A DNA stretch of 64,000 nt from the NCBI RefSeq assembly GCF_040564635.1, contig NZ_CP159837.1:2901001-2965000 (forward strand), written 5' to 3'. Under the pieces are notes generated by a model that was not told where the DNA came from, searched no databases, and worked only from the letters and a program-made list of their open reading frames with translations. The DNA is from Planktothricoides raciborskii GIHE-MW2. GTDB taxonomy: Bacteria > Cyanobacteriota > Cyanobacteriia > Cyanobacteriales > Laspinemataceae. The translations under genes were made by a program, and so were the position numbers. Numbering within the stretch: position 1 is the stretch's first letter; every line of letters starts with the position of its first letter. Below, one piece after another: positions 54,586-63,650 of this stretch.

Positions 54586-54960
54586 TTTTATGATAACAGC
54601 TAATTAAGACACTAATTAAACAATCGCCAACCATCAACCACCAACCATAACAGTTAGTCTTCCCCTAAGCCAGAACCTTTAAAAGTGTCTAGTTATTTGC
54701 TGGCTAAATAACCCAAAAAAGGTACTAATGAAAGAGATGCTAATGAAAGAGGAAATAGCAAAGAGGAAATAGCAAAGAGTATGGTTATGTTTATTCTCTC
54801 TCCTCTCTCCTAAGAAACTCTATCCTAAGAAACTCTCTCTCCTCTCTCCTAAGAAACTCTCTATTTGAGTTAAACGGATTTGCCAATCTGTCAATATCCG
54901 CTCATTGATTGGTAAATCTCTATAGAAGTCTACGATCGCACACCACAACCTGCACTCGAA
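54586..54960. repeat. Short tandem repeats upstream of rpoB
   Basis: AGAGGAAATAGCAA units at about 54748-54780 and four copies of CCTAAGAAACTCT at about 54809-54862. The rpoB leader and promoter must lie in the last part. No gene is seen. Confidence 0.7.
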
Positions 54961-54986
54961 TTTACTCTTGGAACGGTTCACTAATA

Positions 54987-57900
54987 ATGGATAATCAGAC
55001 CTACAGAACACCGGCATTCACGTTACCAGATTTGGTCGAAATCCAAAGAGCCAGCTTTCGGTGGTTTCTTGAAGTGGGACTCATAGAAGAACTAGAAAGT
55101 TTTTCCCCCATTGCGGACTATACGGGCAAGCTGGAACTTCATTTTATCGGCAAAAATTATAAACTGAAGCGCCCCAAATACGATGTAGATGAAGCAAAAC
55201 GCCGTGATGCCACCTACGCGGTACAAATGTATGTGCCAACTCGCTTAATTAACAAAGAAACAGGCGAGATTAAAGAGCAGGAAGTCTTCATCGGCGACCT
55301 GCCTTTAATGACTGAACGGGGCACGTTCATTATCAACGGAGCCGAACGGGTAATCGTCAATCAAATTGTGCGATCCCCTGGGGTTTACTACAAATCAGAA
55401 ACCGACAAAAATGGTCGGCGCTGCTACAACGCCAGCCTGATCCCCAACCGAGGGGCATGGCTGAAATTTGAGACGGATAAAAACGATATTGTCTGGGTGC
55501 GGATTGACAAAACTCGGAAACTGTCTGCCCATATTTTACTCAAAGCTTTGGGGCTGACGGATAACGAAATATTCGACACCATGCGTCACCCAGAGTATTA
55601 CCAAAAAACCATCGAAAAAGAAGGGCAATACACCGAAGATGAAGCCCTGATGGAACTCTATAAAAAGCTGCGTCCCGGTGAACCCCCCACGGTTTCTGGC
55701 GGTCAACAACTGCTCGACTCGCGCTTCTTCGACCCCAAGCGCTATGACTTGGGCAAAGTCGGTCGGTACAAGCTGAATCGCAAATTACGCCTATCCATAC
55801 CCGACAGCGTGCGCGTCCTGACACCCCAGGATATTCTCACCGCGATCGACTATCTGATTAACCTGGAATTTGACGTTGGTTCTACCGATGACATCGACCA
55901 CTTGGGCAACCGTCGTGTCCGCTCGGTTGGCGAACTGCTGCAAAACCAAGTCCGCGTGGGGCTGAATCGATTAGAACGGATTATCCGGGAACGGATGACC
56001 GTTTCTGACTCCGATGCCTTAACTCCTGCTTCCTTAGTCAACCCCAAACCCTTAGTCGCCGCGATTAAAGAATTCTTTGGCTCCTCCCAACTGTCGCAGT
56101 TTATGGACCAAACCAACCCTCTGGCGGAACTGACCCATAAACGGCGGCTGTCTGCCCTCGGCCCTGGCGGTTTGACTCGCGAACGGGCTGGCTTTGCCGT
56201 GCGGGATATTCACCCGTCTCACTATGGCCGGATTTGCCCCATTGAAACCCCAGAAGGACCAAACGCTGGACTGATTGGCTCCTTGGCCACCCATGCGCGG
56301 GTAAATGACTATGGCTTTATTGAAACGCCATTTTATCCAGTGAAAAATGGCCGAGTCGATCGCTCTCAAGCACCCATCTTTATGACCGCTGACGAAGAAG
56401 ACGATCGCCGCGTCGCCCCAGGGGATATTCCCATTGATGAAAATGGCTATATCCAAGGGGAAACCGTACCCGTGCGCTATCGCCAAGACTTCACCACCAC
56501 CACCCCGGAACAAGTGGACTATGTGGCCATTTCCCCGGTGCAAATCATCTCCGTGGCCACCTCCTTAATTCCCTTCCTAGAACATGACGACGCCAACCGC
56601 GCCCTCATGGGGTCTAATATGCAGCGCCAAGCGGTGCCCTTGCTCAAACCGGAACGCCCCCTAGTCGGCACCGGACTCGAAACCCAAGCCGCGCGGGACT
56701 CTGGCATGGTCATCGTCTCCCGCACCGATGGTATTGTTACTTATGTAGATGCGACTCAAATTCGGGTACAGCCTCTTCCTAAGATTGAAGTAAACACAGG
56801 CAAACCAAAACTAGATGAAGTTTTGGAAGCAACTTCTGAGTTACTTGGTCAAAAACTGGCTTGGATGGTGATGCAACAACTCACAATGTCCGCAGTTACT
56901 GCCAGTAGTGGAATAGCAGTATCTACTCTAACTACCATTGATCCAAAGTTGTTATCAAACATTGATACTACTTTCCCATCTTTGATGATTGATAATCTCA
57001 AAGAGCATTTACTGGGTTTAATTCCCAACAAATTTCTGAAAGAACAATTTACACAGGTAATTGATTGGCTTTTTGAGCAGATCAAAAAGTACATCAGTAA
57101 TCGCATTTATGAGGTGGTTAAATCTGTTGGAAATATCTTGCCACCAGGTTTGGCTCCAGCGGAAATAGAAATTGCTTTAGCTCGTTCTTTTGCTGCCTGG
57201 ATTTTGCTTCCAGCACTGAGTTCTATTGCTGGAGTTTTGAAGGATATACTTTCTACGCAAGTTTTTGACCAACTTGTAGAATTTACTTGGAAGGCTGTAG
57301 CAACTTTTCAACATGGAGGCTGGAAACTGCTTCAGCAAGTTCCTCAGCTAATCAATGACTTAGCGCAACTACTTGCATCAGTCACAGATAGCCTGATCAA
57401 AGGACAACTGCTGAAACCTGCCAATATCTCACCAATAGTTCAGCCACAATTAGCTGAGATTACCTACGAACTCCAGAAATATCAACGGTCTAACCAAGAT
57501 ACCTGCTTAAATCAACGGCCTCTGGTCTATGAAGGCGACCAAGTTGTGCGCGGCCAAGTGTTAGCCGATGGTTCCTCCACCGAAGGCGGCGAACTAGCTT
57601 TGGGTCAGAATATCCTCGTGGCTTATATGCCTTGGGAAGGCTACAACTACGAAGACGCCATCCTAATTAGCGAGCGCTTAGTCTATGACGATATGTACAC
57701 TTCCATTCACGTGGAAAAGTACGAGATTGAAGCCCGTCAGACCAAACTCGGCCCTGAAGAAATTACCCGCGAAATTCCTAACGTCGGGGAAGATGCCCTG
57801 CGGCAACTGGACGAAGGCGGCATTATTCGCATTGGCGCTTGGGTCGAATCCGGGGATATTTTAGTGGGTAAAGTCACCCCCAAAGGTGAATCAGACCAAC

Positions 57901-58958
57901 CCCCAGAAGAAAAACTACTGCGAGCCATCTTCGGGGAAAAAGCGCGGGATGTGCGGGATAACTCCCTGCGGGTGCCCAATGGGGAAAAAGGTCGCGTCGT
58001 CGATGTCCGGGTATTTACCCGCGAACAAGGGGACGAACTGCCCCCCGGCGCCAACATGGTGGTGCGGGTGTATGTCGCCCAAAAACGCAAGATTCAAGTG
58101 GGCGATAAAATGGCTGGACGCCACGGCAACAAAGGGATTATTTCCCGAATTTTGCCGGATGAAGATATGCCCTACTTGCCCGATGGCACCCCAGTAGATA
58201 TCGTCTTAAATCCTTTGGGTGTACCATCCCGGATGAATGTCGGCCAAATCTTTGAATGCTTGCTCGGTTGGGCTGGCCAAAATCTCAACGCTCGGTTTAA
58301 AGTCGTACCATTTGATGAAATGTACGGGGCGGAAATGTCCCGGAAGACTGTGCATGGCAAATTGCAAGAAGCTGCCAGTAAAAAAGGGAAAAATTGGGTT
58401 TACGACCCGGGAAACCCAGGCAAAATGGTGGTCTATGATGGCCGCACCGGAGAACCGTTTGATCGCCCCGTCACCGTGGGCAAAGCATATATGCTCAAGC
58501 TGGTGCATTTGGTGGATGACAAGATTCACGCTCGTTCCACCGGACCTTATTCTTTGGTGACACAACAACCCCTGGGTGGCAAAGCCCAACAAGGGGGTCA
58601 ACGGTTTGGAGAAATGGAAGTGTGGGCTTTGGAAGCTTTTGGGTCTGCTTATACCCTCCAAGAACTTCTGACGGTGAAATCCGATGATATGCAAGGTCGG
58701 AATGAAGCCCTGAATGCGATCGTCAAAGGTAAAGCAATTCCTCGCCCTGGCACTCCAGAATCTTTCAAAGTGTTAATGCGAGAACTGCAATCACTTTGTT
58801 TAGATGTGGCTGTGCATAAGGTTGACACATCAGATGATGGCACTTCCCGCGATGTGGAAGTCGATTTAATGGCCGATGTCAATCAGCGCCGCACCCCATC
58901 TCGTCCTACTTATGAGGCAATTTCTGCCACTTCTTTTGCGGAGGACGAGGAAGATTAA
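54987..58958 (+). CDS. rpoB: RNA polymerase beta subunit with a large in-frame insertion
   Basis: 1323 residues from ATG 54987 ([20 protein letters not shown]); frames opening earlier, at 54909, are non-conserved. Cyanobacterial RpoB is normally about 1100 residues. All usual regions are present, including [23 protein letters not shown], the rifampicin-region [47 protein letters not shown] and the C-terminal [18 protein letters not shown]. The excess is explained by about 231 extra codons at 56769-57461, which replace a short loop between YVDATQIRV and [18 protein letters not shown]. The flanks are perfectly conserved and the frame stays open, so the protein is probably functional with an extra domain. 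First gene of the rpoB-rpoC1-rpoC2 operon. Confidence 0.97.
56769..57461 (+). other. 231-codon insertion in rpoB of unknown origin
   Basis: The inserted segment starts [20 protein letters not shown] and ends [16 protein letters not shown]. It looks mostly helical, with amphipathic or hydrophobic stretches such as [20 protein letters not shown] and [20 protein letters not shown]. By eye it is more AT-rich than the surrounding rpoB and has no HIP1 site, suggesting separate origin. It has no Cys/Ser at the first position and no His-Asn at the end, and no endonuclease blocks, so it is not an intein. I do not recognise a family. Confidence 0.85.
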
Positions 58959-59050
58959 AAATTAGCTGTTGGTTGATTGTTGATTGTTGATTGTTGTTAG
59001 TTGGAAAGTTGGTGGGTAGGGATTCTTTGGTTGTTAGTTGTTAGTTGTTA
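58959..59050. repeat. Left arm of inverted-repeat rpoB-rpoC1 spacer
   Basis: TTGATTGTTGATTGTTG units, AGTTGGAAAGTTGG and TTGGTTGTTAGTTGTTAGTT run up to the first intron. The reverse complement of this pattern follows the second intron (60659-60809). Without the introns the spacer would be a long hairpin. Confidence 0.8.
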
Positions 59051-59854
59051 GTGCGATTCGTTCAGGCGGAAAGTCTAGGGATAAAACCCAAAACGTGCGT
59101 CTGGTGTAGGTTCTGACCTACATAACTCTGGGGGTGTACAGGATAGTCCTGTAGACAAAGATTCCCGGAGGGTTTTTCCTCCGAGGTCATAGACACCTCA
59201 CCCCACGGTAAAGATTCACTATCTTTACTCGTGAAGCGGGTAGGAAAGCTGATCATCCCTAAGCAGATGGGAAAAATCAGCAAGTCAAGCGCTCATGGGC
59301 AGCGAGAGCGAATTCCCGGCTTGAACCCTCTCCAAACAAAAGTAGCGAAACTGCTTGTTACGCTGCGTCCAAAATGGCATAGGGAAAGGTGACGAATTTA
59401 ACAAGTCAGTCACAAAGGAATCCCAGAAATACCTAGGGGGACAGGGAAGACCCTAAAAGCGCATTCAACCACCACTAGGGAACGAAGTAAACCCATATTT
59501 CTCTTACCAGTAATGGTAAGTAGCGATAGTGTGTAAGCGGATGAAATATTGGGAATGGGATGTGGCAAGAAAGCTCTTTTCCGCCGGTTTTGCCAGTGGA
59601 TATGCAGACGTGCCACGGCTGTGAAGTTAGCGATTATTAGTAAGTCCAAAGGACGCACAAAACCAGTCGCTTACGACATGGTGTGATTTTAAAGGGACAA
59701 AGGATGAACGCTATGCCAAACGGGAACGTTTAACGACTTCCCCATTAGGATGCTATTGGTTTAGCAAGCGCAGCTAGGAGCGGAGTGCCGCGAAAGTGGC
59801 ACGCTCCGTTCTGAATGGGAGGTGGGAGTTGTGAAGCTCCCATCGACCCCTACC
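59051..59854 (+). mobile_element. Group II intron copy 1 (ORF-less)
   Basis: A ribozyme-type intron of about 803 bp on the plus strand. The 5' end GTGCGATTCG fits the group II GUGYG rule. Domain V is visible at 59778-59811 as a 34-nt hairpin GAGCGGAGTGCC, GCGAAAGT, GGCACGCTCCGTTC. Domain VI follows (TGAATGGGAGG...CATCGACCCCTAC). There is no reverse-transcriptase gene, so splicing or mobility would need help from elsewhere. It is inserted at the tip of the palindromic spacer between rpoB and rpoC1 and directly abuts a second copy. Open frames on the minus strand here are artefacts. Confidence 0.9.
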
Positions 59855-60658
59855 GTGCGATTCGTTCAGGCGGAAAGTCTAGGGATAAAACCCAAAACGT
59901 GCGTCTGGTGTAGGTTCTGACCTACATAACTCTGGGGGTGTACAGGATAGTCCTGTAGACAAAGATTCCCGGAGGGTTTTTCCTCCGAGGTCATAGACAC
60001 CTCACCCCACGGTAAAGATTCACTATCTTTACTCGTGAAGCGGGTAGGAAAGCTGATCATCCCTAAGCAGATGGGAAAAATCAGCAAGTCAAGCGCTCAT
60101 GGGCAGCGAGAGCGAATTCCCGGCTTGAATCCTCTCCAAACAAAAGTAGCGAAACTGCTTGTTACGCTGCGTCCAAAATGGCATAGGGAAAGGTGACGAA
60201 TTTAACAAGTCAGTCACAAAGGAATCCCAGAAATACCTAGGGGGACAGGGAAGACCCTAAAAGCGCATTCAACCACCACTAGGGAACGAAGTAAACCCAT
60301 ATTTCTCTTACCAGTAATGGTAAGTAGCGATAGTGTGTAAGCGGATGAAATATTGGGAATGGGATGTGGCAAGAAAGCTCTTTTCCGCCGGTTTTGCCAG
60401 TGGATATGCAGACGTGCCACGGCTGTGAAGTTAGCGATTATTAGTAAGTCCAAAGGACGCACAAAACCAGTCGCTTACGACATGGTGTGATTTTAAAGGG
60501 ACAAAGGATGAACGCTATGCCAAACGGGAACGTTTAACGACTTCCCCATTAGGATGCTATTGGTTTAGCAAGCGCAGCTAGGAGCGGAGTGCCGCGAAAG
60601 TGGCACGCTCCGTTCTGAATGGGAGGTGGGAGTTGTGAAGCTCCCATCGACCCCTACC
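59855..60658 (+). mobile_element. Group II intron copy 2 (ORF-less)
   Basis: A second head-to-tail copy of the preceding intron, offset by exactly 804 bp. In my reading the only difference is C at 59326 versus T at 60130. Domain V is at 60582-60615. Near-identity means a recent duplication, gene conversion or a second homing event; an assembly artefact is possible but the single difference argues for two real copies. Confidence 0.9.
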
Positions 60659-60809
60659 GTTTAGCTAACAACTAACAACTAACAACTAACAATCAAGTTT
60701 CTAACAATCAACTTTCCAACTTTCCAAAAAAGAACAATCAACTAATAACCATCAACCACCAACCACCAACAAACAACAACCAACCACCAACAAAGAACAG
60801 ATTCAAACT
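60659..60809. repeat. Right arm of inverted-repeat rpoB-rpoC1 spacer
   Basis: CTAACAACTAACAACTAAC, then CAACTTTCCAACTTTCC and CAATCAACTAATAACC, the reverse-complement pattern of 58959-59050. It ends just before the duplicated rpoC1 start. Confidence 0.8.
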
Positions 60810-60950
60810 ATGCCAAAACTAGAGCAACGCTTTGATTATGTAAAAATTGGGTTGGCTTCACCCGATCGCATTCGGGAATGGGGCGAAAGAATTTTACCGG
60901 CGGAGTTGGGCTTGTGTACGATCTGCATACCCGCCCCCCCGTATAGTTAA
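60810..60950 (+). pseudogene. Duplicated 5' end of rpoC1 (truncated copy)
   Basis: From ATG 60810 the first 30 codons ([20 protein letters not shown] to RILP, ending 60899) repeat the start of the intact rpoC1 at 61635. A few synonymous changes are visible (GCT/GCC for Ala, AGA/CGC for Arg). The sequence then diverges ([16 protein letters not shown]) and stops at 60948-60950. It keeps the native upstream spacer, so it is probably the original rpoC1 start, cut off by the insertion of the HNH element. Translation would give a useless 46-residue peptide. Confidence 0.92.
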
Positions 60951-61043: not shown

Positions 61044-61620
61044 ATGTCCCATTATGTCACAGTTCCTCCTCAACTTCTAGGAGAATTAGTCGAATCTGGT
61101 TGTATTATCTATATCGGCCCAGGCAATGGTAATGGCTACGGCGTTAAGCGGGTTCAGGGCAAAAAGTGCTATGCTCATCGATTGGGCTAAGTTAGGAAGA
61201 CCACTAAAGCAGGGATACTGCGCCTGTCACACCTGTGATGTCCGTAACTGCATCAATCCTGAGCATCTATTTGAGGGGACTTACTCGGAAAATACCTTAG
61301 ATGCGGTTAAAAAGGGTCGATATTGCAAGCATAGTCAAAAGTTATCGGAGTCAGAGATTTGGGAAATTAGGCGGCAGTTATATATGAAAAATAGCCATAC
61401 AGAATTGGCGCAAATGTATGGTGTCACTGTAGCTCGGATTGGCCAAATCAATAAACTTTATTTTCCTGAAACTGTAGTTAAGCCGAAACTTAATAAGGAG
61501 ATAGCTGATGAAATTAGAGGGCGATTGGCGGCAGGAGAAAAAGGTTCTCATTTGGCTAAGGCTTATGGCGTTAGTGACAGAATGATTCGGAAGATTAAAA
61601 ACGGTGAGGTTTACAAGTAA
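61044..61620 (+). pseudogene. HNH homing endonuclease gene, frameshifted
   Basis: The frame from ATG 61044 (MSHYVTVPPQLLGELVESG) runs to GKKCYAHRLG and is stopped at 61188-61190. The +1 frame continues WAKLGRPLKQGYCACHTCD, CINPEHLFEGTYSENTLDAV and KKGRY, a clear HNH_3-type endonuclease core. Two helix-turn-helix repeats follow (SESEIWEIRRQLYMKNSHTE; KEIADEIRGRLAAGEKGSHL), as in DNA-binding tails of homing endonucleases. The frame break lies between about 61170 and 61188, so the gene is probably dead unless frameshifting occurs. Upstream, 60951-61043 holds three spaced copies of TTAAAATGC and no recognisable intron core. It stops 14 bp before the intact rpoC1 start. Confidence 0.9.
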
Positions 61621-61634
61621 TTGCAGGACGAATT

Positions 61635-63650
61635 ATGCCAAAACTAGAGCAACGCTTTGATTATGTAAAAATTGGGTTGGCCTCACCCGATCGCATTCGG
61701 GAATGGGGCGAACGCATTTTACCCAATGGCCAAGTAGTCGGAGAAGTCACTAAACCAGAGACTATAAATTACCGCACGCTCAAACCTGAAATGGACGGTT
61801 TGTTCTGTGAGCGAATCTTTGGCCCAGCAAAAGATTGGGAATGCCACTGCGGTAAATACAAAAGAGTACGCCACCGGGGAATCGTCTGTGAACGCTGTGG
61901 CGTCGAAGTCACCGAATCCCGCGTCCGCCGCCACCGCATGGGCTACATCAGACTAGCCGCCCCCGTCACCCATGTTTGGTATCTCAAAGGCATACCTAGC
62001 TATATGTCCATCCTACTGGATATGCCCCTACGAGACGTAGAACAAATCGTCTATTTCAACTCCTACGTCGTCCTCAGTCCGGGGAACGCGGAAAACCTGG
62101 CTTATAAGCAACTACTCACAGAAGACGAGTGGATGCGGATTGAAGATGAAATGTATGTGGAAGATTCCGACCTAGCCGGAATCGAAGTAGGCATTGGCGC
62201 CGAGGCAGTGCAGCGGTTGTTGCAAGACTTGAACTTGGAGCAAGAAGCCGAATCCTTGCGCGAAGAAATTGCCAACTCCAAAGGCCAAAAACGGGCAAAG
62301 CTAATTAAACGCTTGCGGGTAATTGATAACTTTATTGCCACAGGTAGCTGCCCCGATTGGATGGTATTGGAATATATCCCGGTGATTCCTCCAGACCTGC
62401 GCCCAATGGTGCAGTTAGACGGGGGTCGCTTTGCCACCAGTGATTTAAATGACTTGTATCGGCGCGTAATTAACCGCAATAATCGCCTCGCCCGGTTGCA
62501 GGAGATTTTAGCCCCAGAGATTATCATCCGTAATGAAAAGCGGATGCTCCAAGAAGCCGTCGATGCCCTGATTGATAACGGTCGCCGGGGCCGCACGGTG
62601 GTGGGGGCAAATAATCGTCCCCTGAAGTCCCTGTCAGACATTATTGAAGGGAAACAAGGTCGTTTTCGGCAAAATCTCCTGGGAAAACGGGTGGACTATT
62701 CTGGCCGTTCGGTGATTGTGGTCGGCCCAAAACTGGCCATTCACCAGTGTGGTTTACCCAGAGAAATGGCGATCGAATTGTTCCAACCCTTTGTAATTCA
62801 TCGGTTGATTCGCCAAGGACTGGTGAACAATATTAAGGCGGCGAAAAAACTGATTCAACGGGGCGACCCAACGGTCTGGGATGTGCTCGAAGATGTGATT
62901 ACCGGCCATCCGGTGCTGTTAAACCGTGCCCCGACGTTGCACCGTTTGGGGATTCAAGCCTTTGAGCCGATGCTGGTAGACGGACGAGCGATTCAGTTGC
63001 ACCCCCTGGTCTGTCCGGCATTTAATGCGGACTTTGATGGCGACCAAATGGCTGTCCATGTCCCCTTGTCCTTGGAAGCTCAAGCCGAAGCCCGTTTGTT
63101 GATGCTGGCTAGTAACAATATTATGTCTCCAGCGACAGGTCAGCCGATTGTGGCGCCTTCTCAGGATATGGTGTTGGGCTGTTATTATTTGACGGCAAAT
63201 AATCCCCAGGGTCAAGAAAGTGCTGGCAAGTATTTTGCCAATATGGATGATGTGGAAGTTGCCTACGACCAGAAACAGGTTTCTTTGCATACTTTGGTCT
63301 GGGTGCGCGTTGACCCAGAGATGGAGATGGAAACCGATAAGCCAGAAGAACCACCGGAAGTTACCCAGTATCCAGATGGCACGGTGTTAAAGCTTTATTG
63401 GATGCCGTTAGAGATTAATTTGTTGCCTCAGTTGACCGAAGCACCCCAGCAAATACAGCACTCTGATGGCACCGTGGAGCAATTGACCAGTTTGTCCCGG
63501 GTAATTACTGATGCTACAGGTCAGGTGATTGCGTCTTATATTAAGTCTCGCCAAGTTCGAGAAGTTAAAGGACGGCCAGCTTCTCAGTATATTTTGACTA
63601 CCCCTGGGCGGATTATCTTAAATCAGGCGATCGCCCGCATTTTGGCTTAG
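61635..63650 (+). CDS. rpoC1: RNA polymerase gamma subunit (beta' N-terminal part)
   Basis: 671 residues. Seen: [20 protein letters not shown], the zinc-binding [20 protein letters not shown] near residues 72-91, and the catalytic [12 protein letters not shown] with three Mg-binding Asp near residues 475-486. [14 protein letters not shown]-type sequence (APTLHRLG) precedes that. Cyanobacteria split beta' into RpoC1 and RpoC2. The protein is about 45 residues longer than typical. The extra part lies just before the C-terminal [20 protein letters not shown] block (acidic [15 protein letters not shown] and following). No ribosome site or spacer of the original operon precedes this start; only the HNH element's tail does. 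Confidence 0.97.

Follow-up and report, generated by a model that had tools for sequence, protein, structure and literature searches.

Two abutting copies of an ORF-less group II intron between rpoB and rpoC1 of Planktothricoides raciborskii and their probable origin by re-invasion of an occupied site

The rpoB-rpoC1 spacer and its two introns

In the analyzed window (a stretch of 64,000 nucleotides of the P. raciborskii GIHE-MW2 genome), the spacer between the rpoB and rpoC1 ORFs harbors two 804-nt units, placed head to tail and directly abutting each other. Our re-comparison found a single mismatch between them, C59326 versus T60130, just as the preliminary description had reported for this intergenic part of the rpoBC1 operon (Table 1). 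The CTAACAA repeats of the 3' exon could pair with the TTGTTAG arm on the 5' side (inverted repeats I1-I10).

Table 1. Features of the intron tandem and its surroundings (window coordinates, except for the second tandem). L066 and L067 are ORF-less paralogues of the intron.
Feature	Position	Strand	Remarks
rpoB	54909..58958	+	ORF start listed mechanically; true start may be further downstream
5' arm, TTGTTAG-type intergenic repeats	58967..59050	+	5' exon, 3' UTR of rpoB
IBS2 (TTGTT)	59038..59042	+	5' exon; predicted to pair 5/5 with EBS2
IBS1 (TTGTTA)	59045..59050	+	5' exon; predicted to pair 6/6 with EBS1
Intron copy 1	59051..59854	+	804 nt, no ORF, C at intron position 276
EBS2 (AACAA), copy 1	59335..59339	+	intron positions 285-289; homologous loops in L067 and L066 fit their own exons
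EBS1 (TAACAA), copy 1	59399..59404	+	intron positions 349-354; homologous L067 loop pairs 7/7 with its exon
Domains V and VI, copy 1	59776..59853	+	RF00029, 58.7 bits
Intron copy 2	59855..60658	+	804 nt, T at intron position 276
EBS2, copy 2	60139..60143	+	identical sequence, plus 804
EBS1, copy 2	60203..60208	+	identical sequence, plus 804
Domains V and VI, copy 2	60580..60657	+	RF00029, 58.7 bits
3' exon	60659..60790	+	starts with G, then reverse-complement repeats CTAACAA
rpoC1, full-length copy	61635..63650	+	identified from its translation
Second tandem	G000:C1:1388277-1389884	-	exact head-to-tail pair
Target sequence			5' side TTGTTAGTTGTTA; 3'-exon side GTTGTTAG; intron start GTGCGATTCG

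Both units are ORF-less group II introns of type IIB. The covariance model RF00029, whose gathering score in Rfam is 40, recognizes domains V and VI in each of them, and the 5' end GTGCG, present in 8/8 full-length copies, agrees with the group II consensus GTGYG; the group II identity claimed earlier for each unit withstood the covariance-model test. The consensus fold of four related introns retains domains V and VI, and compensatory double changes occur in 45 of the 150 base pairs that it predicts, which together indicate the conserved six-domain ribozyme fold. The intron ends with CTACC and not with the AY usual for group II, while its close relatives end with TAAT or TAAC. Both the unit length of 804 nt and the CTACC end are fixed by two empty sites (see below), and an intron ending at TAC, followed by an exon that starts with C, was ruled out, as this C is absent from the empty sites. 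Since altered 3' ends are known among otherwise regular group II introns (PMC3261151, PMC4424553), such an end does not exclude the unit from this group. As to coding capacity, the ORF list of the window contains no reverse transcriptase ORF inside either copy, and the only ORFs of at least 80 aa within the introns are two antisense frames of 82 aa, in agreement with the earlier remark on the absence of ORFs.

Downstream of the introns, the first ~30 codons of rpoC1 are duplicated (60810-60900 and 61635-61725) with few base differences; the upstream partial copy, absent from the related genome G012, runs into unrelated sequence and then stops. A free-standing ORF between rpoB and rpoC1 (61044-61620), which by eye resembles an HNH homing endonuclease (CHTCDVRNCINPEHL), occupies the same position in G012 and G001; compared to G012, it has a small deletion near 61185, and its frame is broken here. 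It gave no NCBIfam match and just a weak match to Mor in Pfam. RpoB (ORF 54909-58958) carries, after the motif YVDATQI, an apparent in-frame insertion of ~220 residues containing ISPIVQPQ, which matches no Pfam RNA polymerase domain. The minus strand of the window harbors, from 19461 to beyond 30406, a very large CRISPR array of ~169 CRISPR-DR5 repeats (Rfam), 37 nt each.

Copies of the intron and their target

The host genome (7,215,835 bases in a single contig, 99% completeness) contains eight full-length copies of the 804-nt intron at six sites, none with more than two differences relative to copy 1. Four sites are occupied by single copies and two by tandems of exactly two copies; this distribution, and especially the second exact tandem, excludes a chance arrangement. 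The copies are 99.9-100% identical, those of the second tandem being identical to each other. Position 276 is C in rpoBC1 copy 1 and in the single copies, and T in rpoBC1 copy 2 and otherwise only in both copies of the second tandem. Neither this tandem, nor the repeat target considered below, nor the reason why such an arrangement forms appeared in the preliminary description.

An assembly artefact, i.e., a single copy mistaken for two, might be suspected for any multi-copy repeat, the more so as the draft genome of the same species breaks at it. However, the genome is a single 7.2-Mb contig of 99% completeness, the rpoBC1 copies differ by one base, and exactly two copies are found at two separate sites and exactly one at four, so that we consider an artefact very improbable.

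At all six sites, the intron lies in the sense orientation, with the stop codon of the preceding gene 13-187 bp away. This orientation bias is not significant: three of the sites are located between convergent genes, where sense placement is automatic. Among relatives, a metagenome-assembled Oscillatoriales genome has one copy of the intron (98% identity). Screening of 386 cyanobacterial genomes for further tandems by the junction pattern, which detects this intron subfamily only, yielded two other matches, neither of them with any intron. In the host genome as a whole, the Rfam model recognizes 31 domain V regions, those of the eight copies included. Candidate heterologous tandems, namely domain V pairs separated by ~2.4 kb at three further loci, were rejected, since the sequence past the 3' ends is that of one intron inside or near another: these introns are nested and do not abut. 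Nested group II intron clusters (L054, L055, and L056; G000:C1:1901000-1905500, 4168500-4172500, and 5313000-5320000) comprise an intron with a 550-aa reverse transcriptase inside or beside another intron type.

The upstream flank reads TTGTT-RN-TTGTTA at all six sites of the genome and at one site of G012. This sequence is a part of the dispersed intergenic heptanucleotide repeat (TTGTTAG)n, and TTGTTRNTTGTTAR has 145 matches in the genome. At each site checked, the 5' exon can be paired with EBS1 (6/6) and EBS2 (5/5) in separate loops of domain I, as is characteristic of class IIB. The predicted EBS assignment gains independent support from the ORF-less paralogues L067 (817 nt) and L066 (927 nt), with ~63% identity to the intron, which differ from it at both EBS loops and also in their targets: the L067 loops fit their own exon (EBS1 7/7, EBS2 6-7), and so do those of L066 (EBS2 6/6; EBS1 weaker, with two G-U pairs). 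Class IIB introns recognize the 3' exon by EBS3-IBS3 pairing; EBS3 was not located in this intron, and a role of G at +1 is suggested by how often it occurs, the first 3'-exon base being G at six of the seven sites and A at one.

In the draft genome of the same species (G011), the site of the second tandem is empty and contiguous, with ...GATTGTTA joined to GTTGTTAG... or, over a longer stretch, GGTTGTTAGTTGTTGATTGTTA joined to GTTGTTAGTCTAATTTT; the site of L005 is empty in G012. At both empty sites the comparison reveals seamless insertion with no target duplication, and such precise insertion at new sites is what marks a mobile element of this kind. Consequently, both copies of the second tandem came by precise insertion, unless the draft lost them equally precisely; of the two possibilities, gain in this strain or precise loss in G011, the gain is simpler. 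At the other five sites, rpoBC1 included, G011 contigs end on both sides, within the intron or at its edge, which indicates that these sites are occupied there, by one or more copies.

Formation of the tandem

The second copy most probably retrohomed into the 5' junction of the resident copy with the help, in trans, of a related reverse transcriptase-maturase. The ORF-less IIB intron would home to (TTGTTAG)n by means of EBS1-IBS1 and EBS2-IBS2 pairing. An occupied site should stay a valid target, as the upstream 13 nt and G at +1 recur at the junction between exon 1 and the intron: the intron begins with G, as the 3' exon usually does, and TTGTTA plus this G makes up a complete target by the rules deduced here. 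A second lariat could then reverse-splice precisely at the boundary of exon 1 with the resident copy, giving exon 1-copy 1-copy 2-exon 2. On this upstream route the incoming copy would meet the repeat unaltered, and the cut would be followed by the intron's G, the base preferred at +1. On the downstream route the flank is the end of copy 1 (...ATCGACCCCTACC), with which EBS1 pairs at 0/6 and EBS2 at 1/5 positions, so insertion downstream of the resident copy is disfavored.

The combination of C276 in copy 1 and T276 in copy 2 fits the arrival of copy 1 as a newcomer from another locus, whereas after a local duplication both copies should carry the same allele, unless one of them changed afterwards. 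The same observation bears on recombination, in which a resident intron was doubled by a full-length intron DNA circle or by unequal exchange between copies. Exactly abutting full-length copies would likewise result, and the 99.9-100% identity of the copies, complete in the second tandem, is in line with such an event; however, a DNA circle would have to be cut exactly at the intron ends, and nothing here points to one, while exchange between copies at separate loci would not yield abutting copies. Besides, the alleles of the two rpoBC1 copies differ and each is common to other loci, although such a pattern might also arise through subsequent mutation or gene conversion. On balance, we regard recombination as unlikely. 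Still less probable is the reverse splicing of a ready-made dimer, i.e., an unspliced or circular two-copy RNA copied as one unit: one event would be enough for the second tandem, with its identical copies missing from the same-species genome, but the rpoBC1 tandem is C-T and the second one T-T, so that neither tandem can simply have been copied from the other, and standard retrohoming copies one intron length.

As for the favored retrohoming into the resident 5' junction, its frequency deserves attention. Besides the occupied sites, ~139 target-like sites exist in the genome, and with uniform insertion the chance that eight copies include at least two tandems would be only ~1%, or 5% if just 70 sites are usable. 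These values imply that junctions are preferred or that some other factor helps; junctions may be preferred, for example, by being transcribed or otherwise accessible.

The 804-nt intron has no reverse transcriptase of its own. The genome contains 19 matches to the reverse transcriptase family, some of them fragmentary. Proteins of this family, 514-578 aa long, are encoded by introns that belong to the same RNA subfamily as the 804-nt unit. The 578-aa protein of L055 is complete: it combines RVT_1, maturase (GIIM), and HNH domains and scores 324.6 bits against the group II RT-maturase model (cut-off 300); thus, the search for a matching intron reverse transcriptase, suggested in the preliminary description, did find a related intact RT-maturase-HNH protein in the genome. 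By analogy with Thermosynechococcus elongatus (PMC2882425), we infer that a protein of the L055 type mobilizes the 804-nt intron, supplying mobility and probably also splicing in trans, with the caveat that the introns encoding such helpers share only 62-85% RNA identity with it in matching parts.

More generally, this could be an intron without self-immunity: its initial G would take the place of the base with which the 3' exon starts, so that an occupied site is again a full target, serial arrays would be removed in order, and repeat targeting would keep the intron out of genes. On this broader proposal we are evenly divided.

Splicing and comparison with known systems

Judging from the pairing potential, copy 1 should splice first, with the G of copy 2 serving as the 3' exon; its removal would put exon 1 beside copy 2 and restore the IBS1 of the latter, which could then splice as well. 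Copy 2 should not splice alone first, because the end of copy 1, pairing 0/6 with EBS1, offers it no usable IBS1 or IBS2. Joint excision of both copies as one lariat, from the 5' end of copy 1 to the 3' end of copy 2, is also possible. Ordered splicing and joint excision would give identical ligated exons, and the base at intron position 276 distinguishes the routes in a one-intron intermediate. The preliminary description was right about ORF-less group II introns in an intergenic tandem, but its statement that excision of the first, the second, or both copies gives different RNAs needs correction: the routes are not equivalent, and the predicted final ligated product is the same. As the exons consist of non-coding repeats, splicing is probably of little consequence for the protein but would restore a possible long TTGTTAG/CTAACAA hairpin. 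The pair is not a twintron proper, since the copies abut and neither body is interrupted, leaving no intron within an intron; nevertheless, it may function in a twintron-like way by ordered splicing.

ORF-less introns, helper proteins acting in trans, nested twintrons, and homing into introns are already known (PMC2882425, PMC4424553, PMC4649490). The closest parallel is provided by TeI3/TeI4 of T. elongatus (Mohr et al., 2010, PMC2882425), also cyanobacterial ORF-less intron families, which are mobilized by the reverse transcriptases of related introns; there, too, insertion into introns makes new target sites and recent copies are identical. In contrast to our case, the inner intron of T. 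elongatus lies inside the ORF of another intron, forming a nested twintron, whereas here the intron would land at the 5' edge of another copy of itself, and a dispersed intergenic repeat serves as its primary target. Repeated homing into group II introns is shared with Methanosarcina acetivorans, where introns in non-coding DNA provide a lasting target (Dai and Zimmerly, as reviewed in PMC4424553), although those arrays are nested and the identical copies described here abut un-nested. The Trichodesmium twintron Tr.e.I7-I8 (Pfreundt and Hess, 2015, PMC4649490) is likewise a cyanobacterial double intron with ordered splicing; unlike our pair, it consists of two distantly related ORF-bearing introns, nested within a protein gene, and its splicing was shown experimentally, while the order proposed here comes from sequence. 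In stwintrons, the spliceosomal twin introns (PMC8469720), the 5' splice site of one intron becomes functional through removal of the other, as predicted here, but these are eukaryotic and their donor sequence itself is split, so the parallel is functional only. In open-access papers, we found no homotypic abutting group II intron pair (tandem, head-to-tail, or adjacent), no homotypic pair formed via reuse of its own 5' junction, and no targeting of a cyanobacterial heptanucleotide repeat.

If the proposed origin is true, a simple sequence rule would govern the re-invasion of its own site by a group II intron, and the tandem would provide a natural substrate for following the successive splicing of two identical ribozymes, marked by their one-base difference. 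It would also suggest one answer to the question, raised in PMC8919778, as to why the chloroplast-like class of introns undergoes expansion in cyanobacteria: this family lands in a common intergenic repeat, near stop codons and outside genes.
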